From Chloroflexota bacterium (GTDB taxonomy: Bacteria > Chloroflexota > Dehalococcoidia > UBA6926): 33,217 nucleotides of DNA. A program made the position numbers and the translations under genes. This document shows positions 1-20,497 of this stretch, piece after piece (positions within the stretch are counted from its first letter, which is position 1; each line of letters begins with the position of its first letter). The stretch lies in NCBI GenBank assembly GCA_026713485.1, contig JAPOOK010000067.1, positions 1 to 33,217 of the forward strand. The letters are read 5' to 3'. The notes under the pieces were generated by a model that made no database searches, was not told where the DNA came from, and saw only the letters and a list, made by a program, of their open reading frames with translations.

Positions 1-1
1 G

Positions 2-676
2 GAGGAGTTCATCGTCGAGAAGATACGGGAGCGCATCCTCACCGAAGAGACCATCGTGGCCCTGGTGCAGCTGGTGGCTGAGGAGATTGACGCCATGGCC
101 GGTGAGCTTTCCGGCAGGCTGGAGGTGGTCGAGGCGGAGCTTGAGGACGTGAGGAAGCGGCTTTGGGAGGTCTACCAGGCCATCGAGAGCAGCGATCTGA
201 CCCTTGAGGTCCTGTCGCCCCGCATCATGTCCCTGAGGCAGAGGGAGGAGCAGTTGGAGGCTGCGAGAGAGGACGCTGAGACCCGGCTTGAGCAGCGCAG
301 GGTTGTCCTGCCCGACACCGAGGAGATAGTGGAGTACGTGGCGGACTTCCGAAACTTCCTGAAGGATGGGACGATCCCCGAGCGGAAGGCGCTCATCCGT
401 AACTTCGTTGAGGGCATCGAGATCAATGGAGACGAGGCCGTACTGACGTACACCGTGCCCATGCCGAGCGACGGCGTGAGGCGGGAAAAGGCGTCGGTTC
501 TTGATTTCGTCCAGTCCAGCCCACCACCGGGGACGGGAACGTGTGGTGCTGCGTGTATGGTAGCCCTGCTTCTCTCCCCACTTGATGTAGGCGAGGGCAG
601 CCGTCCCTTGCAGTTCGCCTTTGTTCTCGTGGCACATGAACAGTTTGTGGGGCAGGGTGGCGGGATCGACCAGTAG
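2..676 (+). CDS. Large serine recombinase, C-terminal part (5' end off window)
   Basis: The reading frame is open from the left edge, so only the last 224 residues are present. The resolvase catalytic domain and most of the DNA-binding region lie outside. What remains is a long heptad-rich coiled-coil segment, a stretch with the pattern P.ERKALIRNFVEGIEI, and the end motif ASVLDFVQ. This order is typical of the C-terminus of large serine recombinases (phage-integrase/transposon type), which cut and join two short attachment sites. After VLDFVQ the last 50 or so residues look unrelated to the family. They are encoded by the antisense of the neighbouring methyltransferase gene, so the stop codon is borrowed from the integration target. 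The recombinase therefore appears to sit at the very end of an inserted element lying to the left. Family call is firm; the subfamily cannot be judged without the N-terminus. Confidence 0.87.
   Translation, partial: EEFIVEKIRERILTEETIVALVQLVAEEIDAMAGELSGRLEVVEAELEDVRKRLWEVYQAIESSDLTLEVLSPRIMSLRQREEQLEAAREDAETRLEQRRVVLPDTEEIVEYVADFRNFLKDGTIPERKALIRNFVEGIEINGDEAVLTYTVPMPSDGVRREKASVLDFVQSSPPPGTGTCGAACMVALLLSPLDVGEGSRPLQFAFVLVAHEQFVGQGGGIDQ
511..530. other. Probable attachment-site junction of a serine-recombinase element
   Basis: Left of about 511 the plus strand encodes the conserved end of a serine recombinase. Right of about 530 the minus strand encodes the conserved body of a DNA methyltransferase, up to a RPRWW motif. 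The two coding signals switch within this short interval, at the CCACCA that forms the antisense of the WW codons. This is what one attachment-site half (attL or attR) looks like after integration. The exact crossover dinucleotide cannot be read from one junction. Confidence 0.6.
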
Positions 677-3220
677 CCTGCGGGATTCTTGAGGCGTGGT
701 CATTACGGGCCGCAAGTACTCCGGTTCAATGCCCCATTGGTCTATCTTGTCCTGCTTCAAATAGAAGAAATCGTTGGCGCCCGTGGTTATGCCGCGGCGG
801 ATGTGGGCAACGTCTCCCAACCGAACAAGTTTGTCCGCTTTCTTGTCCAGGATGTGATGGTAAATGTCAGGGGCTCGGAGGTACTTGCCGCCCCACTTGT
901 CTCCCACGTATTTCGTCCCCGAAATGCCGGGCTCCCTGCCTGCGGTCAGGAGCGTCTCCTGCGTGCGCATCAATTCGCGTCGGAGGCTCATATCGCCAAG
1001 CGCCTTATCGAATTCATCCCGCAGCGAGATGAACCGCGTCACCGCGCCTTTTTCCTGTGTGCCCTTTCTGATGACGGAGATGATGGTGTTGATGTCCGCA
1101 GTTGAGAATTGCCGTTCCACTGCGCTTTCATAGATGGCTTGCAAGTGCGCGTTGGTCAGCAGGTATTCCTGTAGCTTTGCGCCGTATCCGACGTCCAGCC
1201 AGCTGTTGGAGCACACGAAGACCTGAGTTCCTCCGGGAGCCAGCAACTGCAGGGCGCGCGCATAGAAATAGCAATAGAGATCTGAGCGCGCGACGGCGGC
1301 ATCGGCATAGAGGCTGGTCAGCTCCGTCTTGGTGGGGCCGATATTCTCTTGGCGCACGTACGGCGGGTTTGCTATCGCCACGTCAAAGCCGCCGGCGGGA
1401 GTAAACAATTCCGCGAATTCCACCCTCCAGTCAACGACTCCCTCATGTGCGAGTTCACCAACCTGCACCTCGATGGCACGCGTCATGCGGTTGATCTCGT
1501 CCTTCAGGTCGGTTTTCCGTGTGCCATCGGACTCGCGCATATACACGGCCTTTGTCTCGGCCAGCTTCGTGACGGCTTCCAAATCGATACCCAACACGGC
1601 CTGGGCGTTGATGTCGCTCGGGTCCGGCCCAAGCAGGCTGTCGCCGCGGACGATCTTGAAGTCGAGGTTGGGCAAGGGAGGTGGTGTATCGCCGTCGAAA
1701 TCGATCGCCAGGGAGAGCCAGAGCCGCAGCATGGCGATGTTGACGGCGAATTCATTGATGTCTACGCCGTATAGGTTGCGCTGGATGATGTGGAGTTTGA
1801 TCTTGTAGAGTTCCCCGGGTTCAGACCTGATCCTAAAGAGGGCATCCCGTAGTTCGACAAGTTCCTGCATCATGCCGAGGAGGAACGCGCCGGAGCCACA
1901 GGCCGGATCCACCACCGTAATCTCGTCCAGTTCCGCGCCCACACGTGGGGCTGCGGGACCCCCAATATATGACGCATCGTGCGTGTCAATGAAGCTTGCG
2001 ATGTTCTCCGCACTCACACCGGTTTCCTTGCCCTCAAGGTAGCCTTTCAGCGCCTCGCGGCACATGAAGGCGACGACGGGGCGGGGGGTGTAGTAGGCCC
2101 CGGAATCGTGCCGCTCATTGACCAGTTCCTCGAACACCTTGCCGAGCATCTCCGGGTCGACGGCCACCTCGATATCGTACGGAGTGGACTCCATGACGGT
2201 GAAGTTGAATTTTTCGAAGAGTTCCGTGAGGGCGCTTTCGATTATGCTGTCCGGCACATGGATGCCATCGCGATTGTCGAGATCGCTTTCCTCAAACAGG
2301 CCGCCGTTTAGGAACGGGACCGAGCCGATGGCGTGGGATGCGCCTCCGGTCACGTCTCGTGAGTCCGGGTTGTTGAGGCCGGTAGAGAAGAGGACGCGCA
2401 GTCGATCGCGGTAGAAGTTGGGGTCGTTGCCGCTGGGCGTAGGGGCGGCATTCTTGCTGTAGTCAGTCCACAAGGCCCTGAGGTAATCCTTGTCATCGTT
2501 AATGGAGAGCCATCCCTTGCGAGAGAGGAAGTGGACGAACATGAGGCGGTTGAACAGCGTCTGCGTGAAGAGCCGCTTCGCGCCCTTCTCCTTGTCGCTA
2601 TCGCCAAAGCCGGTGATTGCCTCCTCCGCCCGTTTGAATACCCTCTGATATTCATCGAAGAACTCATCGGTGAACGGCTCGATGGCGAAAGCTTTGGCGA
2701 GGATAGGGGGCAGGAAACCGGGCGGACCGTCCTTCACATCTTCGTAGTCCGCATAGATGTTGGCGATCTGCTGGACGATTGTGCGACGCGGCACGCCGTC
2801 CGTCACCACCATGCGGCGCAGGACAAGGCGCGAGCTGCTGAAATCCGGCAGGATGATGTGTAGCTGGGTTGCTGACATGTTGGAGATGATGAGAAGAATA
2901 TCCTCGCCAAGCTCAGCCTCAATTCGCTTGGCGGCCACCTCAACCTCCGCCTTGCGGACTCGGTCGGTATCGACGGTGTTCAGGTCGATATAGAGGACGT
3001 GGAAGCCATCAAGCTGCGCGATGCGCTCTGCCGTGGCAGGCAGACTGACATTCGAGGGAGTGGCGGGGAGGCTGACGGTCCTATTGAAGACTGGTTCAAA
3101 GTCGAGAACCTCGGCGAATAGTTTGCGGACCTCGTTTGCGCGATTCTCAGGTGTGGAGTCAAAGACGCGCTTGAAGGCAGCCTCTACTTCGCGTGCATTG
3201 TTGGGGTCTTTGATTGGCAT
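521..3220 (-). CDS. Eco57I-like adenine DNA methyltransferase, truncated by insertion
   Basis: The gene starts at an ATG at 3220 and stays in one frame for about 900 residues. Residues near 438 carry the SAM-binding motif DPACGSGAF and residues near 617 the amino-methyltransferase motif NPPY. Together with the long N-terminal region this matches Eco57I-type restriction-modification methylases, which make N6-methyladenine and are sometimes fused to a nuclease (type IIG). I do not recognise a nuclease motif in the N-terminus. Homology-like sequence ends at RPRWW near residue 897, where the recombinase element begins, so the target-recognition part is missing or displaced to the far side of the insertion. 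By chance the frame has no stop all the way to the left edge of the window, antisense to the recombinase. The protein is probably inactive or altered in specificity while the insertion is present. Confidence 0.82.
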
Positions 3221-3942: not shown

Positions 3943-4401
3943 CTAAGCGCGCTCCTCCCGCCGCACCAGCAGTGCCGAGCACCCCCGCTGTACAACGTGA
4001 TGCACGTAAGTATGGCCGCTGCCGTCGTAACCGGTGCGGTAGGCGAATTCGACGTTCGCGCCATGCGGCATGCGGCTGCCGATGCGGGCCGTCTTGCCGT
4101 CATTCTCGCGCACGATCATCCCAGTGCGCTCGCCCTTGCGCCAACCGAGCACCTTCACCTCGGCGGGCATCACGCGCAGCTCGGCTTTCGACGGCTGGAA
4201 CAGCACGTCGTGCAACTTCCTGAGTACCGTCGGCGACGGGCTCCTCTTGCCGGACATGATGCTCGCCAGGTGGCCCGACGTGATCCCCGCCTGCTTCGCG
4301 ACCCTGTTCTGGCTGATGTCGTGCGCGTTCATTCGGTCCCACAACGCCTGGATATTGACGTCGGCGCGCTCTGCCGGCGTGGGCGGCTCATCTGTTGGCA
4401 T
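3943..4401 (-). CDS. XRE-family transcriptional regulator
   Basis: A 152-residue protein. The ATG at 4401 (MPTDEPP) is chosen because the frame upstream of it is low-complexity and does not resemble the family; no strong Shine-Dalgarno is visible. Residues of roughly 20-70 form a Cro/C1-type helix-turn-helix, with ISQNRVAKQAGI then SGHLASIMSGKRSPS as the recognition helix region. The C-terminal 75 residues form a second small domain rich in charged and aromatic residues (KVLGWRKGERTG, GYDGSGHTYVHHV), which I do not recognise. The gene lies downstream of the SRAP gene on the same strand but is separated by 340 bases, so it may have its own promoter. It could control the SOS cassette or the element; this is not shown by the sequence. 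Confidence 0.75.
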   Translation of the reverse strand: MPTDEPPTPAERADVNIQALWDRMNAHDISQNRVAKQAGITSGHLASIMSGKRSPSPTVLRKLHDVLFQPSKAELRVMPAEVKVLGWRKGERTGMIVRENDGKTARIGSRMPHGANVEFAYRTGYDGSGHTYVHHVVQRGCSALLVRREERA

Positions 4402-4616
4402 GGGGCGTCGGGCTGTTCTTGGCGCTGGGGCCCGTCTATCAAGGCGTGAGAATGTCCTCCACCACACCCGGCGAGCGCATAGAATCCAGTTCGACGTTGA
4501 TTGAGCAGAACGGTCTCTGGGTTGTCTGGACATTGATCGTTCCTGTCCTAGTCTCAGGTGTCGCGCTGGTGGCTACACACTTCATGTACGCCAGCCAAAT
4601 CCAATGGCGCAGATAA
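4395..4616 (+). CDS. Possible small membrane protein or gene remnant
   Basis: A 73-residue frame begins at a TTG that overlaps the start of the divergent XRE gene. It contains a hydrophobic N-terminus, a polar linker with the pattern ESSSTLIEQNGLW, and a second hydrophobic segment (VVWTLIVPVLVSGVALVATHF). The pattern of a polar loop, an NGLW turn and a membrane helix looks protein-like rather than random and resembles small two-helix membrane proteins. There is no Shine-Dalgarno, and the start lies inside another gene. It may therefore be the surviving 3' part of a gene whose 5' end was replaced by the XRE gene. Weak call. Confidence 0.35.
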   Translation: MAWGVGLFLALGPVYQGVRMSSTTPGERIESSSTLIEQNGLWVVWTLIVPVLVSGVALVATHFMYASQIQWRR

Positions 4617-4740: not shown

Positions 4741-5409
4741 TTAGACTGCCCTGATGATTACGTCCGGCGTGTCGTTGGCTTGGGAGTTGACGAGCGTCGA
4801 GACGGGGTAGGTTTCCATCATGTCCGGCGGATAGGGGGTGAGGAAGCTGCTGAGCGCGGTAGAATCCTCTATCGAGTGGTCGAGCCAAGCTGCTTCGTGT
4901 TCCGGCGGCAGGATGACGGGCATTCGATCATGGATTGGGCGCATGATGTCGTTCGGCGTGGTGGTGACGATTGTGCAGGAGTTGATCATCTCCCTGTCGG
5001 GGTTTTTCCAAGTTTCCCACAGGCCCGCGAAGGCGAAAGGTTCTCCCGTCGTCATCAGGATGCGCATGGGTTGTCTGGCCTTGCCGCTGCCGGTCCATTC
5101 ATAGAAGCCGTCCGCGAGGATGAGGCAGCGGCGGCGGCGCAAGGCCGTGCGAAACATAGGTCTGTCCGCCAGGGTTTCAGCCCGCGCGTTGATGGCACGG
5201 TTGCCGATGGACATGTCTTTCGCCCACGAGGGTATCAGCCCCCACCGCATGTGCTCTGCTACGTTGTGCCCGTCCTCCCAACGCACCGTCAGGACGTTCT
5301 GCGTCGGCGCAATGTTGAAGCGGGGCGCATATTCATGGACAGGATTCTCGAAGTCAAACCGCAGCTGCAGGGCTGTAAGGTCGCTGATCAGGCTGTATCG
5401 TCCACACAT
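4741..5409 (-). CDS. yedK: SRAP-domain abasic-site protein (YedK/HMCES family)
   Basis: The start is set at MCGRYS (5409), because the family uses Cys2, exposed after methionine removal, as its catalytic nucleophile. An upstream in-frame ATG would bury it. Key residues are all present: Cys2, Asn74 in INARAET, Glu104 in GFYEW and His160 in IHDRMP, at almost the same numbers as in E. coli YedK. At 222 residues it is full length. SRAP proteins form a thiazolidine crosslink with abasic sites in single-stranded DNA and shield them. The gene follows dnaE2 by 60 bases on the same strand and so likely belongs to the SOS operon starting at imuB. This matches the known genomic association of SRAP genes with SOS mutagenesis genes. 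Confidence 0.93.
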   Translation of the reverse strand: MCGRYSLISDLTALQLRFDFENPVHEYAPRFNIAPTQNVLTVRWEDGHNVAEHMRWGLIPSWAKDMSIGNRAINARAETLADRPMFRTALRRRRCLILADGFYEWTGSGKARQPMRILMTTGEPFAFAGLWETWKNPDREMINSCTIVTTTPNDIMRPIHDRMPVILPPEHEAAWLDHSIEDSTALSSFLTPYPPDMMETYPVSTLVNSQANDTPDVIIRAV

Positions 5410-5469
5410 TTTTTGAGCGGGCCACCATGGCATTTTTTCCGGCTTCTCGTTGAATTAGTCTAGCGCGGC

Positions 5470-8400
5470 TCAGTGCCAATCGTGGGCGTTCGGCATGGGG
5501 ACATCGGTGTTGATGGCACGGATCTCAGACGCGATGATGTTTGTCGTTCCGTCCCAACGAGATACGATGCCACGCGCCATGATGACGCGGTTGCGGAGGG
5601 CGCGCCGGGATCGCGCGAACACGTCCTTCCAGAGAATGAGTTGCACGTCGTCGCACTCGTCCTCAATGGTGACGAAGACGGTGCCGTCCCGCCCGCGCGG
5701 GTGTTGCCGGGCAATCGGCCAACCGGCAACGAGCACTTCCTGGTCCTCAGGCATGTTGTACACGTCTGAGGTTCGCAGGACATGGTCATTCAACGTGGGG
5801 CGCACGAATTCCATGACGTGGCCGCGTGGGTAGATGCCCATGACGCGATACTCGCCAACCATCTTCTCGTATTCCAAGAAATCCTTGAGTTGCGGGGTGG
5901 TGTGGTCAGTGGTTGTGGCGAGAGTGCGCTGGCCGCTCCTGAGCGGGCGGTTGGCAAGACCAACTTCCCACAAGGCCTGTCTGCGGTTGGACGAGACATC
6001 ATCGAACGCGCCCGCCATGACGAGCGACGCGGCAGCCTGCGGCGTGATGCCCGTTCTGCTCACAAGGTCGGCGGGGCTGCCGTACCGGCCTCGCGCCTCT
6101 CGTTCTTCCACAATGGCACGCGCCGCTGCCTCGCCAACATCCTTAATGAGGCCAAGGCCCAGCCGCACTGCCCCATCCTCCGGCACGCACAGCGCCCGGC
6201 TGCGGTTCACGCAGGGGTTGAGGAACGGGACACCGAAACGCCGCGCATCTTGCTTGAGGGTCTCCATCGGGTAAAAACCCATCGGCTGGTTGTTGATGAG
6301 GGTCACAAAGAACTCCAGCGGGTGGTAGCGCTTGAGCCACGCGGCCTGGTAGGCGGTGATGGCGAATGCGTGGCTGTGGCTCTCCGGAAACATGTAGTGG
6401 CCGTTGACCTTGCCGAAGATTTTTTCTGCGATATCATCCGGCACGCCGTTGCGACGCGCTCCCTCAAGGAATCGCTGCCAGTGCATCTCAATCAGGGCGG
6501 CGTTGTTGGGACGACCAAAGGCCCGGCGTATCTCATCCGCCTCCGCCGTCGTGACGCCGGCAACGTCCGCCAGCAACTGCACCACCTGCTCCTGCCAGAC
6601 GATGATGCCGTAACCGCGCTCCAACGCCCGCTTCTCCAGCGGGTGATCGTAGCCCCACGCTACCCCGTACCGGTAGCGCTCCACGAATTGGCTGACAGAA
6701 CTGCCCTGCACCCCCACGCCGGGTCGGATGAGTGCGACCTGGTAGGCAAGGTCAAGAAGATTACGCGAGCGGAGACGCTGCGCCATCTTGAGCTGGGCCG
6801 GTGATTGCAGCAGGAAGACACCCTTGGCACGGCCCTCGTTGATCATGTCGTAGACGTTGTTGTCATCCGGCTCCACTCGGCTCAGGTCGGGGCGGCTGCC
6901 CGTCCGCTGCTCAATGAGGTCGAGCGACTGCTCCAGCTGGTCCAGCACCGGCAGGGAAAGGAGATCAATCTTGGCGACGTTGGCATCGGCGATGGTGTCC
7001 TTGTTCCAGTCGATGATGTAGCGCCCCTCGATTGCACCCTCCCGGATGGGCGTCATCTCCGAGATGGGCGAGCTGCTGAGGATCATGCCGCCGACGTGCT
7101 GGCCGAGGCTGCGGGGGGCGTCCATGAGCTGCGGGGCGAGTTCAATCAGTTCCCGCCAGCCCTGCGACTCAACACGATCCTTGTAGGCGGGCAGTCGCAG
7201 CATCTCCTCTTTGAGGTCATCGGCGTGGTGGGAGTGGAGCTGCTTGGAGAGGAGGGTGAGATCCTCTTTGGGCAGGCCGAGTGCCTTGCCAATGTCCTGG
7301 ATGATGCCCTTGACGGAGTAGGTGCTGATCGCGCCGGTGAGCGCGGCGTAGTCCGGGCCATACCGCCGGTGGACGCGAGTGATGAGCTCATCGCGCAGGC
7401 CGCGCGGAAAATCGAGATCAATGTCCGGCAACATGGACATGTCCTCGGAGATGAAACGCTCCAGCGTCAGATCCCACTTGATGGGATCGATGTGGCTGAT
7501 GCCGATGAGGTAACCGACCAACAGCGCGACGGACGAACCACGTCCCCTGCCCGGCGGCCTCTCCTCCAACGGGATCTCCGGCGGTGTCAGTCCGCGCTCT
7601 TCCATGATCTGCTGGGCCAGCAGCACGATGTCCCGATACAGCAGCAGGAAACCGGCGATGCCATGCCGCTTGATAAGGGCAAACTCTTCATCGAGTCGAT
7701 CCTGCACGCGCTGCGAGATGCCGCCGTAGCGTCGCATTGCCGCCTCGAAACAGAGGCGTTGCAGGTAGCTGTCCGTGGTGTAGCCCGCCGGCACGTCCGG
7801 CTCCGGTAGTTCGTAGTTGATGCTCTCGGCAAGGTTGAAGTCGCACTGCTCGGCGATGCGGCGCGTTACGTCGATGATCCCCGGGTACTCCCTCTCAAAG
7901 AGCCGCGCCATCGCGTCGTGGGGCTTCAGATGGAAGTGGTGGTTTGGGCGGATGTGCGGGAGTGCCTGGTCGATGGTGGTGTTGTGCTTGGCGGCGACGA
8001 GCGCGTGCTGGAGGCGGTACCGCTCCGGCGCGTGGTAGTGGACGTCATTCGTGGGAACGAGGCAGACGCCCGCATCTCTGGCGACACGGGCCAGCTCGCG
8101 GTTACGCGCCGTGTCGCCGCGGATGAGGTTCTGTTGCAGTTCTGCGAAGACGGAGTCCCGGCCGAACCAGTTCATGTAGCCTTGCAGGAGTTTTTGAGCA
8201 TCGTCATGACGGCCGGTCAGGGCGAGTTGGGACAGTTGGCCGTCGCGTCCACCGGCGATGAGCACAACACCCTCGGCGTGGTCCGGCAGATGGACAGGAT
8301 CAAGACGCGGCTCACGGCGATCAACAGCGTTGGCGAGCGTGAAGAGACGGGAGATGTTGGCGTAGCCCTGCTTGCTCTTGGCCAGCAGCGTGATGCGGGA

Positions 8401-8619
8401 GCCGTCCAGCATGGTCAACTCGCCGCCGGCAATCGGCTTGATATCGAGACTCTTGGCCAGTCGGGCAAATTCCAGCGCGCCGCAGAGATTCGTGTCAGTC
8501 AGTGCCAGCGCATCGTAGCCGTACTCTTTCGCTTGCGTCAGCAACTCGTGGACGTGCGATGCTCCCTCCCCAAAGGAGTAGAAACTCTTGGCGTGCAACT
8601 CGACGTATGAGGCTGTCAT
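5470..8619 (-). CDS. dnaE2: Error-prone DNA polymerase III alpha subunit DnaE2 (ImuC)
   Basis: A 1049-residue C-family polymerase of the usual DnaE2 length. The N-terminal PHP domain begins YVELHAKSFYSFGEGAS and includes ALALTDTN. The palm holds the two catalytic aspartates in PDIDLDF near residue 398 and a third in AKIDLLSL near residue 550. A helix-hairpin-helix region and an OB-fold domain follow, with VLVAGWPIARQHP and FVTIEDECDDVQLILW near residues 945-990. There is none of the extended C-terminus of replicative DnaE1. DnaE2 performs translesion synthesis with ImuB and the beta clamp. The gene follows imuB by 15 bases and precedes the SRAP gene by 60, in what looks like one transcript under an SOS promoter. 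No imuA is seen. Confidence 0.95.
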   Translation of the reverse strand: MTASYVELHAKSFYSFGEGASHVHELLTQAKEYGYDALALTDTNLCGALEFARLAKSLDIKPIAGGELTMLDGSRITLLAKSKQGYANISRLFTLANAVDRREPRLDPVHLPDHAEGVVLIAGGRDGQLSQLALTGRHDDAQKLLQGYMNWFGRDSVFAELQQNLIRGDTARNRELARVARDAGVCLVPTNDVHYHAPERYRLQHALVAAKHNTTIDQALPHIRPNHHFHLKPHDAMARLFEREYPGIIDVTRRIAEQCDFNLAESINYELPEPDVPAGYTTDSYLQRLCFEAAMRRYGGISQRVQDRLDEEFALIKRHGIAGFLLLYRDIVLLAQQIMEERGLTPPEIPLEERPPGRGRGSSVALLVGYLIGISHIDPIKWDLTLERFISEDMSMLPDIDLDFPRGLRDELITRVHRRYGPDYAALTGAISTYSVKGIIQDIGKALGLPKEDLTLLSKQLHSHHADDLKEEMLRLPAYKDRVESQGWRELIELAPQLMDAPRSLGQHVGGMILSSSPISEMTPIREGAIEGRYIIDWNKDTIADANVAKIDLLSLPVLDQLEQSLDLIEQRTGSRPDLSRVEPDDNNVYDMINEGRAKGVFLLQSPAQLKMAQRLRSRNLLDLAYQVALIRPGVGVQGSSVSQFVERYRYGVAWGYDHPLEKRALERGYGIIVWQEQVVQLLADVAGVTTAEADEIRRAFGRPNNAALIEMHWQRFLEGARRNGVPDDIAEKIFGKVNGHYMFPESHSHAFAITAYQAAWLKRYHPLEFFVTLINNQPMGFYPMETLKQDARRFGVPFLNPCVNRSRALCVPEDGAVRLGLGLIKDVGEAAARAIVEEREARGRYGSPADLVSRTGITPQAAASLVMAGAFDDVSSNRRQALWEVGLANRPLRSGQRTLATTTDHTTPQLKDFLEYEKMVGEYRVMGIYPRGHVMEFVRPTLNDHVLRTSDVYNMPEDQEVLVAGWPIARQHPRGRDGTVFVTIEDECDDVQLILWKDVFARSRRALRNRVIMARGIVSRWDGTTNIIASEIRAINTDVPMPNAHDWH

Positions 8620-8634
8620 GAGGTGCTGCGCGAA

Positions 8635-10080
8635 TTACGGAACATGTTGATACCAGCAATCGTCACGCCGGTCTCGGAAGAGGACCAGTTCGCGGCCGTC
8701 CTGTCGGCTCACGCGGTAGTAGGTCCTGGTGAGGGGCTGCGGCAGCCACCAGAGGTCGAAGCTCCAGCGGTCTTCGATGCGGTCGATCCTCTGCCACCGC
8801 TCGCCAAGCCGCACGGCGACCGGCTGTCGGTTCGGGCCCTCTCGCACGACCAGTGCGGTGGGCACTGAGAGGGCCGTCGCATCATCACCGGTGGAGGAAT
8901 CGATGGGGACGCGGAGGGCGCGCATCTCAGGCGCTGGGTGCCACGGCGCGACATCCAGGATCTGGTAGAGGGCGTTGCTCCCCCTGAGGTGAGCACGGAG
9001 TCCCCTGTACATTTCCAACAGCCGCTCATTTCGGTCGCGGCGGTTCTCACGCAGCAGGCCCATCTGCATGCCCTCGTCGCCGCTCAGATCAGTCAGCGTC
9101 ACGCTGATCTCCTCGACAGGCGCAAGAGGGTGATCCTGCTCCATCTGCGGCGTGATAATCTCCGACACGCGCCCCGATGTGCCGGCGGGCTGCTTGAATC
9201 TCAGGATTCTCTCCCATGCGGGGACGTTGAGCAGAAGGCAATGGAGCATGACGGCCCCGGCGTAGCGGCCGCGCATTCGCGGCGTGGCATAGGCACGCTT
9301 GAGGAGGGTGTCCAACGTGACGATGACGAGTTGCAGAGAGCTTGAGGCGAATGGTAGCGACATGCGCTCCGAGACGGATTCCTGATACGCGAGTGGGATG
9401 AGAGGACTGTCGTCGATGCCGTGCGAGAACCGCCACACCGCGCCGCCCTCAGCGCCGAACTGATCGACAAGGGCGGCCTCGGACATCGCCGCCACATCGC
9501 CCAACGTGCGAAGGCCGAAACGACGGAGGCCTATGCGGGTTTCGTCCTTTGTCGGCAGCAACTCGACGGATCGCGGGGCTAGGAACTCCGCCGCATCTAG
9601 TGGGACAGCGGTGACGCCGAGAGGGGGGGTACCAGCGGCCGCAGCAAATGCGGGGAACTTACCCTCGCCGATGCCGATTCGCGCCTGCAGGTAACCCGGG
9701 ATCGCCTCATGCAGCGCGGCGACCAGCGCGTCCTCGCCGCCGTACATCTCGTCCAGCCCGGCCACGCGCACGTAGGCCGTTCCGAGACCTGCGTCCTCAA
9801 CCTGGTCGCTGACCTCTTGCAGCGCAGTGAGTGTCTGCCGGAACACACTGCGATACGTTGCCTCGTCCGCCTCAAGGATCAGCGTATCCGCCTGCTGCGA
9901 GAGGGCCTGTTCCGGCGTCATGCCGATACTGATGCGGGGGGCGGCGGGCGAGTGGTCGACGACAATGGGTTTCTTCTGTCCGCGCGCGACAATGACGGCG
10001 GGTTTGCCGGACAGGTCCGGCCGCCGCCGCATCTCGATCTTTGCCCTCAGATGCGTGATGAGCACGCAGGCGATACGCAT
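8635..10080 (-). CDS. imuB: ImuB, inactive Y-family polymerase-like mutasome subunit
   Basis: A 481-residue protein. The ATG at 10080 (MRIACVL) is preferred over the GTG four codons upstream because a GGGGGG Shine-Dalgarno lies five bases before it. The Y-family fold is recognisable from RIACVLITHLRAKIE through ARIGIGEGKFPA, but the first catalytic aspartate motif is replaced by CVLITH. The usual SxDE stretch reads as the ImuB-type VRVAGLDEMYGGEDAL. It is therefore a non-catalytic ImuB, the hub linking DnaE2 to the beta clamp. The last 80 or so residues (VAVRLGERWQRIDRIEDRW to YYRVSRQDG) match the small C-terminal domain often found in ImuB proteins (DUF6504-like). It is the first gene of the SOS operon. 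Confidence 0.9.
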   Translation of the reverse strand: MRIACVLITHLRAKIEMRRRPDLSGKPAVIVARGQKKPIVVDHSPAAPRISIGMTPEQALSQQADTLILEADEATYRSVFRQTLTALQEVSDQVEDAGLGTAYVRVAGLDEMYGGEDALVAALHEAIPGYLQARIGIGEGKFPAFAAAAGTPPLGVTAVPLDAAEFLAPRSVELLPTKDETRIGLRRFGLRTLGDVAAMSEAALVDQFGAEGGAVWRFSHGIDDSPLIPLAYQESVSERMSLPFASSSLQLVIVTLDTLLKRAYATPRMRGRYAGAVMLHCLLLNVPAWERILRFKQPAGTSGRVSEIITPQMEQDHPLAPVEEISVTLTDLSGDEGMQMGLLRENRRDRNERLLEMYRGLRAHLRGSNALYQILDVAPWHPAPEMRALRVPIDSSTGDDATALSVPTALVVREGPNRQPVAVRLGERWQRIDRIEDRWSFDLWWLPQPLTRTYYRVSRQDGRELVLFRDRRDDCWYQHVP

Positions 10081-10111
10081 CGTTCCCCCCACCGTTTACC
10101 TAGTAAGGGGC

Positions 10112-10770: not shown

Positions 10771-10935
10771 ATGCCAAGAAACAAGCGCTACGGCGAGTAC
10801 GAACTCACACCGGAACAGCAGCAGATCGTCGACGACGGACTACGCATACTCGCTCGGATGATTGCCAGACGGGTCATGCAAGAGCAGGCGCACGATGCCG
10901 CTCACGCCGCAAGTGGGGAGGAAGGGCGCCAGTGA
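10771..10935 (+). CDS. Small hypothetical protein, first gene of the HTH array
   Basis: A 54-residue protein beginning MPRNKRYGEYELTPEQQQ, with a GGAAGGAAG Shine-Dalgarno 8 bases before the ATG. An upstream in-frame start would add 35 residues of unlikely sequence. The middle (IVDDGLRILARMIARRVMQEQ) is a predicted amphipathic helix, and the C-terminus is rich in Ala and His. No known domain is recognised. Its last bases overlap the GTG of the next gene (GTGA), indicating translational coupling and a shared role with the helix-turn-helix proteins that follow. Confidence 0.6.
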   Translation: MPRNKRYGEYELTPEQQQIVDDGLRILARMIARRVMQEQAHDAAHAASGEEGRQ

Positions 10936-11177
10936 CAGCCAAGGCGAGGCGTCCACGCGTCAGGATACGAACCCGACGGGTCTATGAGTTGCTGGAACAG
11001 CTCAATCTGTCCCAGAACCAACTGGCCGAACTCGTAGGCGTTTCCTCTGGCTACATGTCGATGCTTCTCACCGGAAGACGGTCGCCATCGGGTGCCGCGA
11101 GGAGGCGTCTTCAAGAGGCATTGAGTGTCACCGAATTCGGCGAGATCTTTGAGTTGGAGGGCGCGAATGACGCATAG
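10932..11177 (+). CDS. Small XRE-like helix-turn-helix protein
   Basis: An 81-residue protein starting at a GTG that overlaps the previous stop by 4 bases. After a basic N-terminus (KARRPRVRIRTRR), residues of roughly 18-68 make a Cro/C1-type helix-turn-helix: LNLSQNQLAELVGVSSGYMSMLLTG, followed by RRSPSGAARRRLQEAL. There is no further domain, so it is a bare DNA-binding module. It is the second of five overlapping genes. Its likely role is repressor or antirepressor of the element; the target is not visible. Confidence 0.8.
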   Translation: MTAKARRPRVRIRTRRVYELLEQLNLSQNQLAELVGVSSGYMSMLLTGRRSPSGAARRRLQEALSVTEFGEIFELEGANDA

Positions 11178-11463
11178 AACGTATCTGCCCAAGAGGTTGA
11201 TGCTGTTCGGGGCGGACCTGCCGGACGACTTTCCCGACCGGATCGAACTCCTGCGCCAGAAGACCGGCCTCTCGCGAGAGGCGTTCGCGCACTGCCTCAA
11301 CGTCGACCCCAGGCAGTTGCGCAAGTGGATGAAAGGGTCCAGACCGGGCCCGGACGGTCTCTTTGCCCTCTTCACGATGGCCGAGCGCCTGCCCGACGGT
11401 TTGTCGCTTCTCTTGCACGGGAATCTGAAGAGCAAGTCGGTTCAGGGGAGGTTTCGACCATGA
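11167..11463 (+). CDS. Small helix-turn-helix protein (array member 2)
   Basis: A 98-residue protein. The ATG at 11167 overlaps the previous gene by 11 bases. The body follows the pattern F..RIELLRQKTGLSREAFAHCL, then VDPRQLRKWMKG, then GLFALFTMAERLPDGLSLLL. The recognition-helix segment has a conserved W followed by K/R and G. The next two genes repeat the same layout at the same spacing, so the three appear to be tandem paralogs. The fold is most like XRE/Cro helix-turn-helix, but the sequence is divergent. Function unknown; DNA binding is inferred. Confidence 0.72.
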   Translation: MTHRTYLPKRLMLFGADLPDDFPDRIELLRQKTGLSREAFAHCLNVDPRQLRKWMKGSRPGPDGLFALFTMAERLPDGLSLLLHGNLKSKSVQGRFRP

Positions 11464-11747
11464 GAGATGAGCCGTCGACGGCTCAGGATCAGCCCGCCTT
11501 TCCCGCACGCTTGCGGGCGTTCAGGAAGTTGACCGGGATGACCAATGCAGAGATCGCCAAGGCCATAGAAGCGCCGGTGGGCGTTGTCAACGGCTGGCAG
11601 CGGGGAGCCTTGCCGAGGGGTCTCGCCCTGCTTCGATTCATGGCGCTTGCGGCCAAGATTCCCGATGGCATGGACACCATGTTCCCGCTGCTGGCCGCCG
11701 ATATCCGCAAGTTGGACGCAAACCGGCGCGATCGGTATGGCTCGTAA
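11460..11747 (+). CDS. Small helix-turn-helix protein (array member 3)
   Basis: A 95-residue protein starting at an ATG that overlaps the previous stop (ATGA). The internal layout matches its neighbours: PAFPARLRAFRKLTGMTNAE, then IAKAIEAPVGVVNGWQRGALPRG, then LLRFMALAAKIPDGMDTMF. The W-x-R-G turn after the putative recognition helix and the IPDG near the C-terminus are shared positions. It looks like a duplicated and diverged copy of the adjacent genes. The unusual feature is that each copy stays a separate short protein rather than a fused repeat. Confidence 0.72.
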   Translation: MRDEPSTAQDQPAFPARLRAFRKLTGMTNAEIAKAIEAPVGVVNGWQRGALPRGLALLRFMALAAKIPDGMDTMFPLLAADIRKLDANRRDRYGS

Positions 11748-12012
11748 GAACCCAGTCCTTCTCACCTCCCGCCCAGCCTTCCCGTCTGACTTCCCTACCC
11801 GTCTTGAACGGTTCAAAGAGGCTTCGGGTCTCACTTGGCGTGTTCTCGCGCGGGCGGTCTACGTGAGCCCTCGCCGAGTCCACTATTGGCGGCACGGCAC
11901 CCTGCCCGACGCGGTCCATTTCTATCAATTACTCACACTGGCGGAACAACTCGGCCTGCGAGATGTGCTGGTGGGGGACGACGATCCCGAAGAACGGGAT
12001 GATTCGGAGTAG
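11737..12012 (+). CDS. Small helix-turn-helix protein (array member 4)
   Basis: A 91-residue protein whose ATG overlaps the previous gene by 11 bases. It repeats the family pattern: PAFPSDFPTRLERFKEASGL, then LARAVYVSPRRVHYWRHGTLPD, then FYQLLTLAEQLGLRDVL. The C-terminus is strongly acidic (DDDPEERDDSE). It is the last gene of the array. Its stop is one base from the stop of the convergent replication-relaxation gene, with no terminator between them, so transcripts from the two sides should overlap. Confidence 0.72.
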   Translation: MARKNPVLLTSRPAFPSDFPTRLERFKEASGLTWRVLARAVYVSPRRVHYWRHGTLPDAVHFYQLLTLAEQLGLRDVLVGDDDPEERDDSE

Positions 12013-12013
12013 G

Positions 12014-13648
12014 TTACCCTCTGTGATCCTTAGGCTCGTTTCGCCTTACGGGTGACGCTATCGCCGGATGCGGCCCCGGGTTCCCGTCCCTCACCACCAG
12101 CGGCAAAGACACGCCGGTTCTCGTCATCTCCTGCCCGGCAATTCGGGCGAAGCGGGAAATGGCGATCTCGTCTTCAAGAACGACCAGGACCTTGGGCGTG
12201 ACTCCGTGGTCGTCGAGCGGGCGCTTCGTGGAATAGTAGCGGAGGTACGGGGCGATGCGCTCGCGCATCGTGGAGGGACGCACGGCACGCCGTTCCCATT
12301 CGAGGAAGAATGCCTGTGTTTCGTCGTGGCACCGGAGCATAAAGAAGGCGTCGGGATGAACCGACCGCTGCCCTCCCTCGTACATGAAATACCGGGAAGC
12401 GCGATGTGGCGGATCAAGCTGAACAATCACCCAGCCCTGCTCACGGGCCGAAATCGCCATTGAGGCAAGATACGAGTGAACCGCGTCGGTGTGACCAACG
12501 TGTCGAAGCAACTGCCGGATTCGTCTTCCCGGCACCCTGTACCAAGTATGGCTCAGATCCTCTCCGGTCTCACTTATGCTCCAGCGTCGTTTCGTCGTAC
12601 CGACAGATGCTCGGTCTCTTCGGGACAGCAGCCCCAAACCACGATCGGTGAGCGCAAGACGAATCCCATTCACGTAAAACCGATTCACCAGCCCCCTTTC
12701 ACCCAGCCTACCGAGTATCTCGGACAACCACGTTGGATTCAGGTCTAGGAGGATGCGCAGATTCTCGATGCTGATGCATGGCCAATCGGCGATCATGTCC
12801 AGCACACTCTTATCCGATGGATGGAGATCGACGGGGAGCAGGTGGGCCGGGATGTTGTGCTTATCACCTCCCAATGTCAACTCTTCAGGCATCGTCACGC
12901 GGTTGAGGGGCGGCTCGGTTAGGACCCTGCCCTCCTTAGGGGTCTTTCTGACCGCAGACGCGACATCGAACCGTGCGTCCGTACCGGGCATGTTCCACAC
13001 GGGTTCGTCCGCGTCCTCGGACATGAACGTCCTCTCGATTGCAACGAACGCGGGAATATGTTGACGGGCCAAAAACCTGACGGCATACCGCGATCTGATC
13101 TCGTCCGGCACAAGCAGCATCAAAGAGCCCGGCATTGGGCCATCATGGAGACGCTCGATCCTCTTGGTGAAGGCCGTTCTGTCTGACATCGGCCCCCACC
13201 GCATGATCCCCATTACCCGACCGTCGAGCAATGTGACGGCGGCATCGAGAGCTCCCGCGCGGTAGATGCGCAGACGCATGGCCGATGACGCCAGATGGAT
13301 GACTTCGGCAATGCCATAGATGCTGGCCAATGCATCAAGGCGCCCAAGCAGTAGCCGGTGCCACTGTGACGACACCGGTCTAGTTCGCAGGAGCTCGTCC
13401 ACATCTACTTCCTGCAGGCGTGCCGTCTCCCGAATCCCATCTGCGGTCAGATAGAACCGTTGGGTGTGACGTTGCCCTTCGGTCGTGTGCGGCAGGGAGG
13501 CCACAAGGCCAGCGAGATCGAGTCGTTCGACGGCCTTGTAGACACCGGACACCGACGATGACACGAACGTCGCCAACTCCGCTCTGCTGAGGAAGGGCAT
13601 CTCGGAGAGAAGCCGCAGTATGTCCGAGACCACCATAGTTGTTCGCAT
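12014..13648 (-). CDS. Replication-relaxation family protein
   Basis: A 544-residue protein. The ATG at 13648 is chosen because AAGGGA lies 9 bases upstream and the longer frame has an implausible N-terminus. Residues 5-75 form a winged helix-turn-helix (LSRAELATFVSSSVSGVYKA, then a TAD.GI wing). A second winged helix lies near residues 290-355 (ISIENLRILLDLNPTWLSEIL). The C-terminal part has HPDAFFML followed by FFLEWERR, which resembles the nuclease-like core of the replication-relaxation family (Replic_Relax) found next to conjugation ATPases on plasmids of Gram-positive bacteria. It is the last gene of the T4SS operon and may process or control the DNA to be transferred. The family assignment is from memory of its layout and is not certain. 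Confidence 0.65.
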   Translation of the reverse strand: MRTTMVVSDILRLLSEMPFLSRAELATFVSSSVSGVYKAVERLDLAGLVASLPHTTEGQRHTQRFYLTADGIRETARLQEVDVDELLRTRPVSSQWHRLLLGRLDALASIYGIAEVIHLASSAMRLRIYRAGALDAAVTLLDGRVMGIMRWGPMSDRTAFTKRIERLHDGPMPGSLMLLVPDEIRSRYAVRFLARQHIPAFVAIERTFMSEDADEPVWNMPGTDARFDVASAVRKTPKEGRVLTEPPLNRVTMPEELTLGGDKHNIPAHLLPVDLHPSDKSVLDMIADWPCISIENLRILLDLNPTWLSEILGRLGERGLVNRFYVNGIRLALTDRGLGLLSRRDRASVGTTKRRWSISETGEDLSHTWYRVPGRRIRQLLRHVGHTDAVHSYLASMAISAREQGWVIVQLDPPHRASRYFMYEGGQRSVHPDAFFMLRCHDETQAFFLEWERRAVRPSTMRERIAPYLRYYSTKRPLDDHGVTPKVLVVLEDEIAISRFARIAGQEMTRTGVSLPLVVRDGNPGPHPAIASPVRRNEPKDHRG

Positions 13649-13755
13649 AACCCATCCCTTCTCTTGTAGTACGGTTTCACTCGATTGCCGATCTGCGCCA
13701 AGCGGCCCGTTCTTGCGGCAGCGCCACCCAGCGTCTTGCAACGTGCTTCCGGCTG

Positions 13756-16233
13756 TTAGGTGATGTCGCTCTGCTCTTCGCTGTCCGCGTCGTCGACCGT
13801 CTTGCGGTACTGTTCAACCAGACGCTCAAGACTCGCGTCACGAGCGCCCAAGATGTCGTGTCCGGTGGTGTAGTCGACGGTTCCGGCACGGATTCTCTGA
13901 GCGAGGGCGCCATTCCCCGTCCCGGGCTTCCGCACTTCCATCGAGAACGTTGGCAGCCGTTCGGTGCCGACCGTCGCCCTGACGTAACACTGATGGACCG
14001 GCAGCGACGTGATGTCATCCTGCGTCACTCGGTCAGTACCGAGTTCTCCCACGAGCTGACGCGCATCCGAGGAGGCCACCTGGAAGACCGCGAGGCATCC
14101 GACGTTTGCCAGCAGGCTGTCCCGCATGGTGGGAGACAGGTCATCGAGTTTGGAGAGGCTCTGCGTGGCGAGCACGAAGCTCGCCCCAAACTTGCCCAGC
14201 TCAGACAGCATGGATTCGTAGTCCACGCCGGGCATCGATTGCATCTCGTCGACCACGACGAGCACGCCCCGGCGTTCGCTGGGGTGGAGCCCTCCCTGCT
14301 CACGAATAACCGCGTCGACAAGATTCAGCAGGGAGGAGCCGACCAAGGCGGACACGTCGCGCCCCGCTGCTCCCTGTGCCGTCGACACGAGGAGGATTCC
14401 GCCGTCGCGAATCGTGCGCCGGATATCGATCGTGGACCGCCGCTGCCCCAGAATCGCACGCGCCTTCTTGGATGTGGCGTAGTAGGACAGGCGCGTCTGA
14501 ACCGGAGCCAGCGCCTCGGACCGGTACTGCTTGTGCCAACTCGTGAAGTCGCGGGCCCACCATTCCAGTAGGTGGATATCGTCCACTCTCTTGAGCATCT
14601 TGGATCTGAAGGACCCGTTCTTCGGTGCGAGGAGCGCAAGACCGTCAAGGATTGTGTACTGCTTGTCCTCCGGCATCCTCTCGTTGGCCTCGTGGAGAGT
14701 CTTGACCACCTGCTCCAGGATCGACTGCATTCTGGGGCCCCACTGGTCCCAGAGTCCCTTCGCAATGCGTACGACCGAATCGGCCGTTCGGTCGCGGTCG
14801 GTGAAGATGCGGGAATCCAGAAGGTTGATTCCCGGGGCTCCGTTCGGATCGGCAAGATCGACGAGTCTGACCTGGTCCGCCAACGACTCCGGGACGTGTT
14901 CCAGCAGGGACGCAATAAGGTCGACATGGGGGTCGATGACCACGATCGCGTCGTCGTCCCTCCCGATCGCCTTCTCTCGCAGTTTGTGCGCCACGATGTG
15001 CTGCATGAGGGTCGACTTGCCCATACGCGTGCGTGCCACGTACAGGTGATGCCGGCGGAGCAGATCACCCGGAAACCGTATCTCGCCGCCGGAGTCCCCA
15101 CTGAAACTGCCGACGTGAGCGCCAAAGTCAAGCGCCCTGGCGGATGGCGTCAGCACCTTCGAGCCTGAGCGGTCGACCTGGGGCGCTTCATCCTTCGAGC
15201 CGAGGGGATGCCATAGGCTGGCCACCTCACGGACGCCGAGCACGTTGCGCTTGGCAAACATGCCTCCTCCGACTTTGAGGCCGAATTCCTCGGGCGCGAG
15301 CTTCAGCTTGCCGACATCGAACTTCGCCCCGACGGGGTTGTTGTAGTGGCCATACGCTGTGGCCGCCTGCGTGAGCAGCTCACTCGCTCGTCGCCGTCCA
15401 CCCTTTTTGGGGACGACAGCTATGAGTTGCACCTCCGCCTGGAACGCCGTCCGCGACACCTTCTCCAGGACAATCTGCGTGTTGGGTATGCGCGGCTTCT
15501 CTCGCTTGAGACGCGTCCACACGATTGCCGCTGTCAGCGCCCCGAGCACTGCCCCGCCGGCGAGGGCAATCGCCTTGAAGACATCGCCGTCCTGCCAGTA
15601 CTGCCATGTTCGCAGGCCAACGAATGCGCCGCCCGCCAGCAGCATGAGCCGGATGACCTCCCCGTGGTTGACCTGCCCTTCCTGCGGCGTGGGGCGGGGG
15701 ACGAAGCGTGGTTTCTCCGCCTCCACCTGATAGGCCTCCGACCAATCGGGACCCATCGACTTGAGAACGAGGCGAGCGACGACTCGCTCCTTTGGCCGCA
15801 CCGCCGACAGTGCTCCGATGAGGGCGAGCATGGGGTCGGAGCCCTCGTCGAGTAGATCGTCGTCCCTGAAGACCCGGAGAGGCACGTATTCCGGTCCTCT
15901 CACCGTGAGGGACGTCGTCCACGCCTCTTCGCCCTCATCGAGCGTCAACGGGTCATCCGCGTCATTGACGGCGCTCACCCGCGCTTGCGGATAGTGGACG
16001 CCCACCTGCCCGCGCACGGTCTGCGAATCGATGCAACGGACAAGGAGTCGCACCCCATCCCCGTTGCCCGCAATCTCCAGCGAGAAGGGCTCCGGGACGG
16101 CAATGGCTTGCAGCATGTTTTCGACACCGAGCATGGTGCGTTCCCCCGTGCGGGGCGGGGTTATGGACAATAGGACGGGATCGTTTGCCTTGTCCGATCC
16201 AAAGAGTCTCTTGAGTGGTGTTAGCGGATTCAT
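13756..16233 (-). CDS. VirD4/HerA-like conjugation coupling ATPase
   Basis: An 825-residue protein. The ATG at 16233 has a GGGAGG Shine-Dalgarno and overlaps the VirB4 stop by 4 bases. The order is a soluble N-terminal region, two membrane segments at about 193-236, then an ATPase domain. The Walker A near residue 404 reads ARTRMGKST, with Ala in place of the usual first Gly. Walker B near 662 is GVLVVVDEMQS, and a sensor-like VLATQSLSKLD follows. This is the TraD/VirD4-HerA class that delivers DNA-protein substrates to the T4SS channel. The neighbours VirB4 and Replic_Relax fit. A DNA-pumping role in conjugation is inferred from family and context. Confidence 0.85.
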   Translation of the reverse strand: MNPLTPLKRLFGSDKANDPVLLSITPPRTGERTMLGVENMLQAIAVPEPFSLEIAGNGDGVRLLVRCIDSQTVRGQVGVHYPQARVSAVNDADDPLTLDEGEEAWTTSLTVRGPEYVPLRVFRDDDLLDEGSDPMLALIGALSAVRPKERVVARLVLKSMGPDWSEAYQVEAEKPRFVPRPTPQEGQVNHGEVIRLMLLAGGAFVGLRTWQYWQDGDVFKAIALAGGAVLGALTAAIVWTRLKREKPRIPNTQIVLEKVSRTAFQAEVQLIAVVPKKGGRRRASELLTQAATAYGHYNNPVGAKFDVGKLKLAPEEFGLKVGGGMFAKRNVLGVREVASLWHPLGSKDEAPQVDRSGSKVLTPSARALDFGAHVGSFSGDSGGEIRFPGDLLRRHHLYVARTRMGKSTLMQHIVAHKLREKAIGRDDDAIVVIDPHVDLIASLLEHVPESLADQVRLVDLADPNGAPGINLLDSRIFTDRDRTADSVVRIAKGLWDQWGPRMQSILEQVVKTLHEANERMPEDKQYTILDGLALLAPKNGSFRSKMLKRVDDIHLLEWWARDFTSWHKQYRSEALAPVQTRLSYYATSKKARAILGQRRSTIDIRRTIRDGGILLVSTAQGAAGRDVSALVGSSLLNLVDAVIREQGGLHPSERRGVLVVVDEMQSMPGVDYESMLSELGKFGASFVLATQSLSKLDDLSPTMRDSLLANVGCLAVFQVASSDARQLVGELGTDRVTQDDITSLPVHQCYVRATVGTERLPTFSMEVRKPGTGNGALAQRIRAGTVDYTTGHDILGARDASLERLVEQYRKTVDDADSEEQSDIT

Positions 16234-18449
16234 ACACTGCCTCCCTTCTGTTGCTGAACGGCGATCCGGCTTCGGCCTGGCCGCCACTCGATAACGTCTG
16301 TCTCTTCCTCTGTAGCCTCAATACGGACGGGAAACCGGCCTCCCCGTGCCAGCAGAAGTCCGTCACCGCGAGGGCACGAGATCAGCCAATGCTGCAGGTC
16401 CTCGGGGAGGTCGAACGCGTCACCGACCGTGCGGATCGCCGCCGCGTCCTGCTGTAGCAGGAGCTTGAACGCTGCGTTCTGGAGCAACGCCCGACCGGAA
16501 TGGCCGGTGATGGCGCGGGACGTGTCCTCGGACAACAGATCCTGCACGTCCTGTGTGATGAACTGCAGACCAAGCCGGTGCTTGCGGGCCCGCTTGGCCA
16601 TGCTCACCATGAACGCCGCGCCCTCCGGGTGCTGCATGATCGACCACACTTCGTCCACGACCAGGAGGCGCGGCTTGGGATTCTGCGCCGCCGCCGTCCA
16701 CACGGTTTCCGTGCAGACCATCGCGGCGGCGGGGCGCATCTCTGGTTCCAACAAGCGCAGATCGAAGACCGTGACGGGAGCCTCATTGGTTAGGAGGTCG
16801 TCGCCCTCGTCCGTGAGGAGATGCCGGAGACTGCCCGTCGCGAACGGCCTGAGCAACTTGTCCAGAACGCCGTCGCCGTGCTCCTTCAGGTGTTCGTAGA
16901 AGTCCCCGAAACCCGTGCGTTCACGAGGCTCCATGTAGTAGGCAGCGAGGGCGTGATCGAGCGCCGCTCGCCTCTCCGCGCCCAGTGGCTCACCGATCAT
17001 GACCTCGATGAGTCGCCTCAGGCTGCCGATGCGGAGGAGCAGCTCCTCGCTGTCGGAGCGGTCGATGACAAAGGGGTTCATTCCCTGCCCCGGCACTCCG
17101 GGCGACAGGACGCGTCCACCCGCGGCGCGCGCCATATCCGCGTATTCACCCTCTGGATCGATTACATAGGCCGTCACCCCACGGCAGATCGCGCGTAGGA
17201 CGCCGAGCTTCGTGGCGAACGACTTGCCGCTGCCGGAACGGGCGAGGACGGCGGTATTCGCGTTGAGATGCGTACCGTCGAACGGGTCGTAGACGATTGG
17301 CGACGACGAGCGGAGGTCTAGACCATACAGGGTGCCGCTGCGGGTATCGAGGTCCGGCGGGGAGAACGGGAAGAGCCGCGCCAACGATGATGTGTCCAGA
17401 GTTCGCCAGGTTCCGATGGCATTGAGTCCGATTGGCAGTGCTGAGACCAACCCCTCGCGTTGCCGGTAGGAGAGAGTATCGAGCTTGCCCAGGGTGGAAG
17501 CGAAATGGGCCCGAACGCCCTGTGTCATCTCCTTGAGCTCGGCGGCGTCATGGGCGTGGAGCGTGATTGAGAGCGAGGAATGGAAGAGCCGCTCCCTTCC
17601 TCGCTGCACGTCGTCGCGGAGGCGGCGCACGTCCTCAAGCGCGATCTCGGCCTCAGGCGACATGGTCTTGCCGCGCCTGATCGACAGCGACTGCGCCGAC
17701 TCGAATCTCACCTTCTGCCATTCGAGCGTGCGGGACGCCTGGTCGGCGGGAATCGGGCCGAGATGGATTGACACGTCCATCCGCGTCCCGGACGCCATCA
17801 GCGCCTGCAAGAATCCCGGGATCAGCGCCCGCGGCCACTTGCCCAGGTGCAGCGACCTGGCAAGCGTGTCACCTAGGCGAATCTCCCTCTGCCGGATCTC
17901 GACCTCTAGGAACGCATCGTCGGCAATCTCTCTCGGCGAGCCCCCGGCCGCCGACGCGACGATCAGCATCCTCAGCTGGCGGCCCCTAATGGGATTGACG
18001 GCCAATCCGGCGCGGACCATCAGGCCGCGCAGGTCGTCGATGCGGTCGAATTCGCAGACGGCATAGAAACGCCGGTCGACCACGCCTTCCCGGTCCTCAA
18101 GGTCGGAGAGCAGCCCACGTAGGGAGTCTGCGGCGACCGTCGTCTGGGGCGGCAGGTTGTCGGGCTGCTCGTCCATTAATTGAGCTCGCAGGCGGCTCAA
18201 CTCCGGCGAGTGTTGCCGAATCAGCAACTGCACCGGAAAGTCCATCGCGTTGAGCGCGCCGGTGAAGGAGCCCAGTTTCGCCTCGTCCAACTCCAGCCCA
18301 AGCGCTTCGAGCACTCCGAGCTTCACGCCGTCGATGCGGACCGGCCCGTCATCGTCGACGTGGGAGAGCATGAAGAATCTTGCCAGCGGGCTGGCCTCGG
18401 ACTCGGGTGTCGAATCAGGCGTTTTCGGTCTTTTTAAGAAACTCTTCAA
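16230..18449 (-). CDS. virB4: VirB4/TraC-like T4SS ATPase
   Basis: A 739-residue protein. The start is set at TTG 18449 because AAGGAG lies exactly 7 bases before it. A GTG six codons upstream would place this ribosome-binding site inside the gene. The N-terminal half is the VirB4 domain. The C-terminal half carries Walker A ARSGSGKSF near residue 406 and Walker B LLVVDEVWSIM near 598, followed by QFITQDVQDLL. VirB4 energises pilin extraction and substrate passage at the inner face of the membrane. It overlaps the coupling ATPase downstream by 4 bases. Confidence 0.9.
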   Translation of the reverse strand: MKSFLKRPKTPDSTPESEASPLARFFMLSHVDDDGPVRIDGVKLGVLEALGLELDEAKLGSFTGALNAMDFPVQLLIRQHSPELSRLRAQLMDEQPDNLPPQTTVAADSLRGLLSDLEDREGVVDRRFYAVCEFDRIDDLRGLMVRAGLAVNPIRGRQLRMLIVASAAGGSPREIADDAFLEVEIRQREIRLGDTLARSLHLGKWPRALIPGFLQALMASGTRMDVSIHLGPIPADQASRTLEWQKVRFESAQSLSIRRGKTMSPEAEIALEDVRRLRDDVQRGRERLFHSSLSITLHAHDAAELKEMTQGVRAHFASTLGKLDTLSYRQREGLVSALPIGLNAIGTWRTLDTSSLARLFPFSPPDLDTRSGTLYGLDLRSSSPIVYDPFDGTHLNANTAVLARSGSGKSFATKLGVLRAICRGVTAYVIDPEGEYADMARAAGGRVLSPGVPGQGMNPFVIDRSDSEELLLRIGSLRRLIEVMIGEPLGAERRAALDHALAAYYMEPRERTGFGDFYEHLKEHGDGVLDKLLRPFATGSLRHLLTDEGDDLLTNEAPVTVFDLRLLEPEMRPAAAMVCTETVWTAAAQNPKPRLLVVDEVWSIMQHPEGAAFMVSMAKRARKHRLGLQFITQDVQDLLSEDTSRAITGHSGRALLQNAAFKLLLQQDAAAIRTVGDAFDLPEDLQHWLISCPRGDGLLLARGGRFPVRIEATEEETDVIEWRPGRSRIAVQQQKGGSV

Positions 18450-18470
18450 GTCGGTTCTCCTTAACACATG

Positions 18471-20474: not shown

Positions 20475-20497
20475 GGATGTCTCCTCTCTGTGGCGGG

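Follow-up and report, generated by a model that had tools for sequence, protein, structure and literature searches.

How does a gene for a site-specific recombinase come to end inside a DNA methyltransferase (MTase) gene? The question is raised by the left end of contig JAPOOK010000067.1 from a Chloroflexota bacterium (Dehalococcoidia, UBA6926). This contig, C67 of a 1.9-Mb genome bin, was analysed over its complete length of 33,217 nucleotides, which we call the window. A plus-strand frame, read directly from base 2, encodes the C-terminal part of a large serine recombinase (LSR) of a clade called A here, and stops at TAG 674–676. An MTase frame starting at 3220 runs towards it on the minus strand, and the two meet at about nt 520–527. 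The features at the junction are as follows.

2–511, plus strand: C-terminal part, 170 codons, of an A-clade LSR; the gene is cut by the contig end and its rest lies beyond the contig
512–526, plus strand: conserved element end, attP-side arm, with the core CCACCA at 521–526; the same DNA in 29 clade members, divergence from 527
527–676, plus strand: target-supplied recombinase tail, 49 codons antisense to the MTase, with the stop TAG at 674–676; tails vary among loci
524–3220, minus strand: truncated Eco57I / type IIG-like DNA MTase (Pfam Eco57I, E=2e-34; PADLOC type IIG; homologs and alignment)
2–523, minus strand: continuation of the MTase frame into recombinase antisense sequence, with no stop before the contig end and no Pfam match

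Of 393 genomes from this class, 130 contain relatives of the recombinase. The A clade comprises 29 sequences with at least 56% identity, the window included, and is monophyletic with a branch support of 100/99. Its members mostly share the protein end VLDFVQSxPP and a DNA end close to CAGTCC.GCCCACCA. Conservation among the 29 sequences averages 1.3–1.7 bits per column over the 30 bases that end at window nt 526 and about 0.26 bits from nt 527, and all 29 members cease matching at the core, at the same base. Pairwise DNA alignments of 20 recombinase loci nearly all stop within a few bases of one point, the exceptions being loci whose flanks are related to each other. Because so many alignments end there, the junction is not a chance feature of one contig. 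The first-pass annotation had taken this place for an att junction, and it is the product of attachment-site recombination.

The same 20 loci were read through the core. None has a stop before it, and the final residues all come from the flank, showing that a stop codon supplied by the target, as had been suggested for this recombinase, is a property of the whole clade. The recombinase gene of the clade crosses its own attachment site, so that DNA of the integration site provides the last codons. It had also been proposed that the protein keeps its family sequence up to VLDFVQ, continues in antisense MTase sequence, and would change its C-terminus on excision. The family part is slightly longer (VLDFVQ-S-x-P-P) and is followed by a tail of 49 residues from the target; tails differ between loci, and no recombinase homolog at another locus carries the one in the window.

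The 170 codons in the window are 91% identical to G281:C21 and 88% identical to G238:C14. A Pfam scan of these codons gave no match. Assignment to the LSR class comes from a full-length clade relative, which has Resolvase, Recombinase and zinc-ribbon domains, the window holding the C-terminal 170 codons only. DUF4368 was not seen in the full-length relative scanned.

On the other strand, the MTase is family-like up to W-W (nt 524), in agreement with the earlier reading that placed the limit at RPRWW. Five relatives (L009, L010, L011, G263 and G019; 48–56% identity) align with it to a conserved W-[Y/W], mostly R-W-[Y/W], and then run on for about 150 residues. These residues are absent from the window, which instead continues as the reverse complement of the recombinase, and no intact MTase homolog enters recombinase sequence. 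Neither of the two observations that the first-pass annotation named as refuting its reading, such an MTase homolog or the same tail on a recombinase elsewhere, was made. The second W codon of the window MTase already lies inside the recombinase CCACCA. At the W-[Y/W] codons the relatives read TGGTAC, TGGTAT or TGGTGG, with TGGT in all five, and therefore the target probably had TGGT, which is ACCA on the other strand. From these alignments the crossover is placed within nt 512–526, with ACCA/TGGT as the shared minimum.

MTase residues 612–847 align with positions 127–375 of the 585-residue BseCI. The C-terminal region of such enzymes reads the target sequence. The gene is split beyond the methylase domain, in the C-terminal, probably target-recognition, region. 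The methylase domain is present and the C-terminal 150 or so residues are gone, so this is not an intact Eco57I / type IIG enzyme; the position of the break implies that it is probably inactive. A search of plasmids, phages and viral contigs found no relative of the recombinase, and only MTases of less than 60% identity, which were on plasmids.

What lies to the right of the junction bears on the kind of gene that was split. The contig there has the make-up of an integrative conjugative element (ICE), and we predict that window 527–33217 belongs to the ICE family that carries A recombinases. Its conjugation and maintenance modules occur in the same order in ICEs with A recombinases, at up to 80% identity (VirB4), and the maintenance module is collinear in G171:C41. 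The MTase accordingly appears to be ICE cargo. The claim that the break falls inside a restriction or defence-type gene stands, and the view of that gene as an ordinary chromosomal MTase does not. The features of this resident ICE, assigned by Pfam except where stated, are the following.

3943–4533, minus strand: HTH_3 regulator; by tblastn, related genes lie between the recombinase and the conjugation module in related ICEs
4741–10092, minus strand: cargo block with an SRAP protein (4741–5433), a DnaE-type polymerase III alpha (5470–8619) and a Y-family IMS/ImuB-like polymerase (8635–10092)
12014–22607, minus strand: conjugation module with a Replic_Relax protein (12014–13741), a TrwB/TraG-like coupling protein (13756–16287), a VirB4-like ATPase (16230–18467) and TrbL/VirB6 (20906–21868)
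25237–33217, plus strand: maintenance module with a DnaG-like primase (25237–26358), SSB (28871–29284), RadC (29396–29902) and a DUF6094 MTase-like protein (30991–32031)
End of the maintenance module, leaving the contig, plus strand: helicase-like frame, labelled from reading the sequence only

The SRAP, DnaE-type and ImuB-like Y-family polymerase block at 4741–10092 resembles an SOS mutagenesis cassette. Between it and the conjugation module, nt 10932–12012 hold a row of small regulator-like genes, one of them HTH_3 and the others without a Pfam match; relatives of 11584–12012 recur beside the conjugation module of related ICEs, often as two tandem copies.

The A recombinase of related ICEs lies at the end with the conjugation module, points out of the element to which it belongs, and is read in the same direction as that module. 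In the window this end is occupied by the truncated MTase, and the A recombinase is directed at the resident ICE from outside it. The resident's own integrase and element ends were not seen within the window. The layout is like that of convergent pairs formed by an A recombinase and one of a second clade, B, but the join is inside a cargo gene.

The usual site of these recombinases was therefore of interest. Those of the B clade and the lower-identity relatives of A mostly read into the antisense of a tRNA 3′ end (TGGTGGAGC...GATTCGAACC); by ARAGORN, 18 of 33 B recombinases and 8 of 11 lower-identity relatives do so. Most of the eight recombinases in single-contig, Dehalococcoides-like genomes also enter antisense tRNA 3′ ends. 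Two B-type recombinases of the window's own genome, L003 (G000:C18) and L004 (G000:C15), enter antisense tRNA-Ala and tRNA-Ile, so further elements of this kind are present in the same bin. Among the 29 A flanks none enters a tRNA; ten are convergent with a B recombinase, whose end they abut (A-CCACCA-B), and the remaining 19 read towards other DNA.

An empty-site comparison was possible in the cobalamin region of G171:C41, which the sisters G074:C19 and G117:C11 keep uninterrupted. At the place of the G171 recombinase end they have a tRNA-Ala and a tRNA-Ile ending in CCACCA, and the spacing to the next conserved motif is nearly equal in G171 and the sisters (about 117–122 bases, counted by eye). 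At this one locus, then, an A-type element can sit at a tRNA 3′ end too, with the A recombinase turned round so that it reads into the DNA downstream of the tRNA. Similar tests in an oligopeptide-transporter region and beside a histidine-kinase gene gave no exact empty site, and one of them found no tRNA. Judged from this locus, the usual site of the A clade appears to be a tRNA 3′ end. The junction in the window has no tRNA 3′ CCA and its target is the MTase, which is thus most likely a secondary site. No other A member has an MTase gene as its target among the flanks examined, and the idea that the clade specifically targets MTase genes, having no support there, was rejected.

The same part of G171 (L104, G171:C41:137545–143693) also has a B-type element ending in tRNA-Ala, with the A-type element 6 kb off and cobalamin genes between them; at the A site, the sisters carry a second tRNA gene. 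Elsewhere, A and B recombinases lie tail to tail with only CCACCA between them, each tail being the antisense of the other (G178:C13 and C60, G223:C14 and C11, G241:C64, G193:C48, G074:C9 and C18, G160:C30, and G088:C25). Such pairs are two elements that meet at a single tRNA, or else a circular or tandem junction. We did not adopt the idea that A and B are the two ends of one element and the pair its circular junction. The shared core speaks for it; against it, in G171:C41 and G178:C13 the A and the B recombinase each have their own conjugation-module genes pointing to them, and no partner is listed within 77–137 kb of contig. Some A junctions, such as L069 (G128:C11), L072 (G088:C39) and L062 (G241:C13), carry a motif like the B end (CGTACCGAACTGCGAAC or similar) about 10–15 bases off the core, and the MTase sequence AACGTGTGGTGCTGCG at window 527–553 resembles the L062 version. 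These shifted motifs may be left over from older ends, reflect a half-site preference, or be due to chance.

The best account is that a second A-type ICE integrated at a TGGT pseudo-site in the cargo MTase gene of the resident ICE, to which we give a probability of roughly 0.62. An ICE with an A-clade LSR, circular after excision, would have entered by conservative site-specific recombination, in which its attP (recombinase 3′ end, CCACCA, other end) was joined to a pseudo-attB formed by the W-[Y/W] codons (TGGT) of the MTase. The target would have belonged to the cargo of a resident ICE from the same broad family, close to the recombinase-side end of that ICE. The join would split the MTase in its C-terminal region and fuse the recombinase frame to 49 antisense codons. 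The DNA to the left would be the whole second ICE, with the missing MTase half at its far end, and excision may still be possible. In favour of this account, the junction lies both at the exact recombination point of the clade and at the TGGT of five MTase homologs; the convergent A–B arrangements at ten loci suggest that insertion of one such element beside another is common.

Several points weigh against it. The contig begins inside the recombinase gene, and the DNA left of base 1 is outside the data. The other half of the MTase gene, which the first-pass annotation had proposed to look for, was not found in the genome bin, nor was the N-terminal part of the recombinase, in searches of which one had no positive control. 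No tRNA-like half-site upstream of the core was recognised by eye in the MTase homologs, and the maintenance-side end of A-type ICEs was not located.

The alternative that survives best is a two-step accretion, which we consider unlikely. The resident ICE would have been at a tRNA; recombination of the tRNA core with the MTase TGGT would have deleted its own recombinase and the 3′ part of the MTase, and a new A-type ICE would have entered the same tRNA and come to abut the stump. An A-type element does sit at a tRNA 3′-CCA in the one locus tested, and pile-ups at such sites are frequent, but this path requires two events where the direct join into the MTase requires one. We regard as quite unlikely an inversion within one ICE, by which the end carrying the resident's own A recombinase recombined with the MTase TGGT and flipped the recombinase together with the 3′ part of the MTase. 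It would produce the same local structure and, by making the recombinase the resident's own, would explain why the resident has none where related ICEs have one. A possible parallel is G193:C19:82713–128492, where, by comparison with the other ICEs of this family, both the conjugation and the maintenance module are turned round with respect to the recombinase. Serine integrases, however, normally join attP to attB, and an integrated end is not attP.

Fusion of two unrelated contigs at the recombinase end during assembly is improbable. The sequence does come from a metagenome bin, the contig end is 525 bases from the join, and in the two closest relatives, too, the contig begins within the gene or a short way upstream; a chimera would still not be expected to join at the exact recombination point of the clade with a matching MTase core.

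The first-pass annotation had further suggested a switch on host defence, in which the MTase would be a selected, regular site where reversible insertion turns restriction-modification off and on. The ground for this is the nature of the target gene and nothing else: the site is at a conserved motif of the MTase family, and Tn1806-like ICEs regularly use MTase genes (PMC12942858). The suggestion is unsupported: neither of the missing halves was found in the assembly, and none of the other clade members examined lies in an MTase gene. No empty or excised allele was seen, and a survey of LSRs found their targets not to be enriched in or near defence genes (Durrant et al. 2022, PMC10083194). We hold it to be highly improbable. 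Least probable is a circular or tandem junction of a single element with its conjugation-side end in the MTase gene and A at the other end. The convergent A–B junctions do resemble attP or tandem junctions, but this reading requires that a complete gene of the MTase family should happen to stop just where the element does, and in related ICEs that end is occupied by the recombinase and not by an MTase.

The junction is real and sharply defined, and of a kind already documented elsewhere. In the ssrA islands of Dehalococcoides, dsiB always overlaps attL, its stop lies only outside the island, and its C-termini are divergent (McMurdie et al. 2011, PMC3146451). The A clade is alike in that the integrase gene extends across the attachment site and finds its stop only in the flank, in 29 of 29 members and apparently in the same bacterial class. 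The two are set apart by description: DsiB targets the tmRNA gene ssrA and has a small partner recombinase, DsiA (PMC3146451), whereas the A clade appears to use tRNA 3′ ends, its recombinase lying downstream of them, the window case being an MTase gene and its relatives lying at tRNA genes or other DNA.

In Streptococcus agalactiae, the genes entered by Tn1806-like ICEs are hsdM and those for an SNF2-type or an Eco57I-type MTase; these ICEs can also be nested in ICESa2603-family ICEs, and their excision from the nested state was shown experimentally (PMC12942858). They too are serine-integrase ICEs that split MTase genes, Eco57I-type included, inside another ICE. They differ in having the core TGGG, three serine integrases and MTase genes as regular targets, while in the window the core is CCACCA/ACCA and the MTase is seemingly an exception; the window element is thus not Tn1806-like in core or regular target. 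Streptococcal integrative and mobilizable elements with serine integrases likewise live inside ICEs and disrupt their genes (PMC5357655), but their regular targets are conserved ICE genes and the target here is a cargo gene. Like multi-targeting LSRs (PMC10083194), A recombinases are found at many unrelated sites; they differ in seeming tied to the tRNA CCACCA end, at the one testable locus, and in that DUF4368 was not seen in the relative scanned. Their scatter may reflect many tRNA genes together with accretion rather than relaxed specificity.

For annotators, chimeric tails, such as the GGAEGTRTPD type from antisense tRNA, are to be expected in these recombinases and are not domains. The remark made on dsiB in 2011 can now be tested on dozens of natural variants. 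There is a slim chance that the tail is functional: as the last residues differ between the circular and integrated forms, the overlap of gene and attachment site would work as a sensor that governs the activity or direction of the recombinase, which at the MTase site would be coupled to the loss and recovery of restriction-modification. The A clade adds an example, clear in 29 of 29 members, of integrases that receive their C-terminus from the integration site, and the locus in the window shows to within a single codon how a defence-type gene on one mobile element can be broken by a related one.
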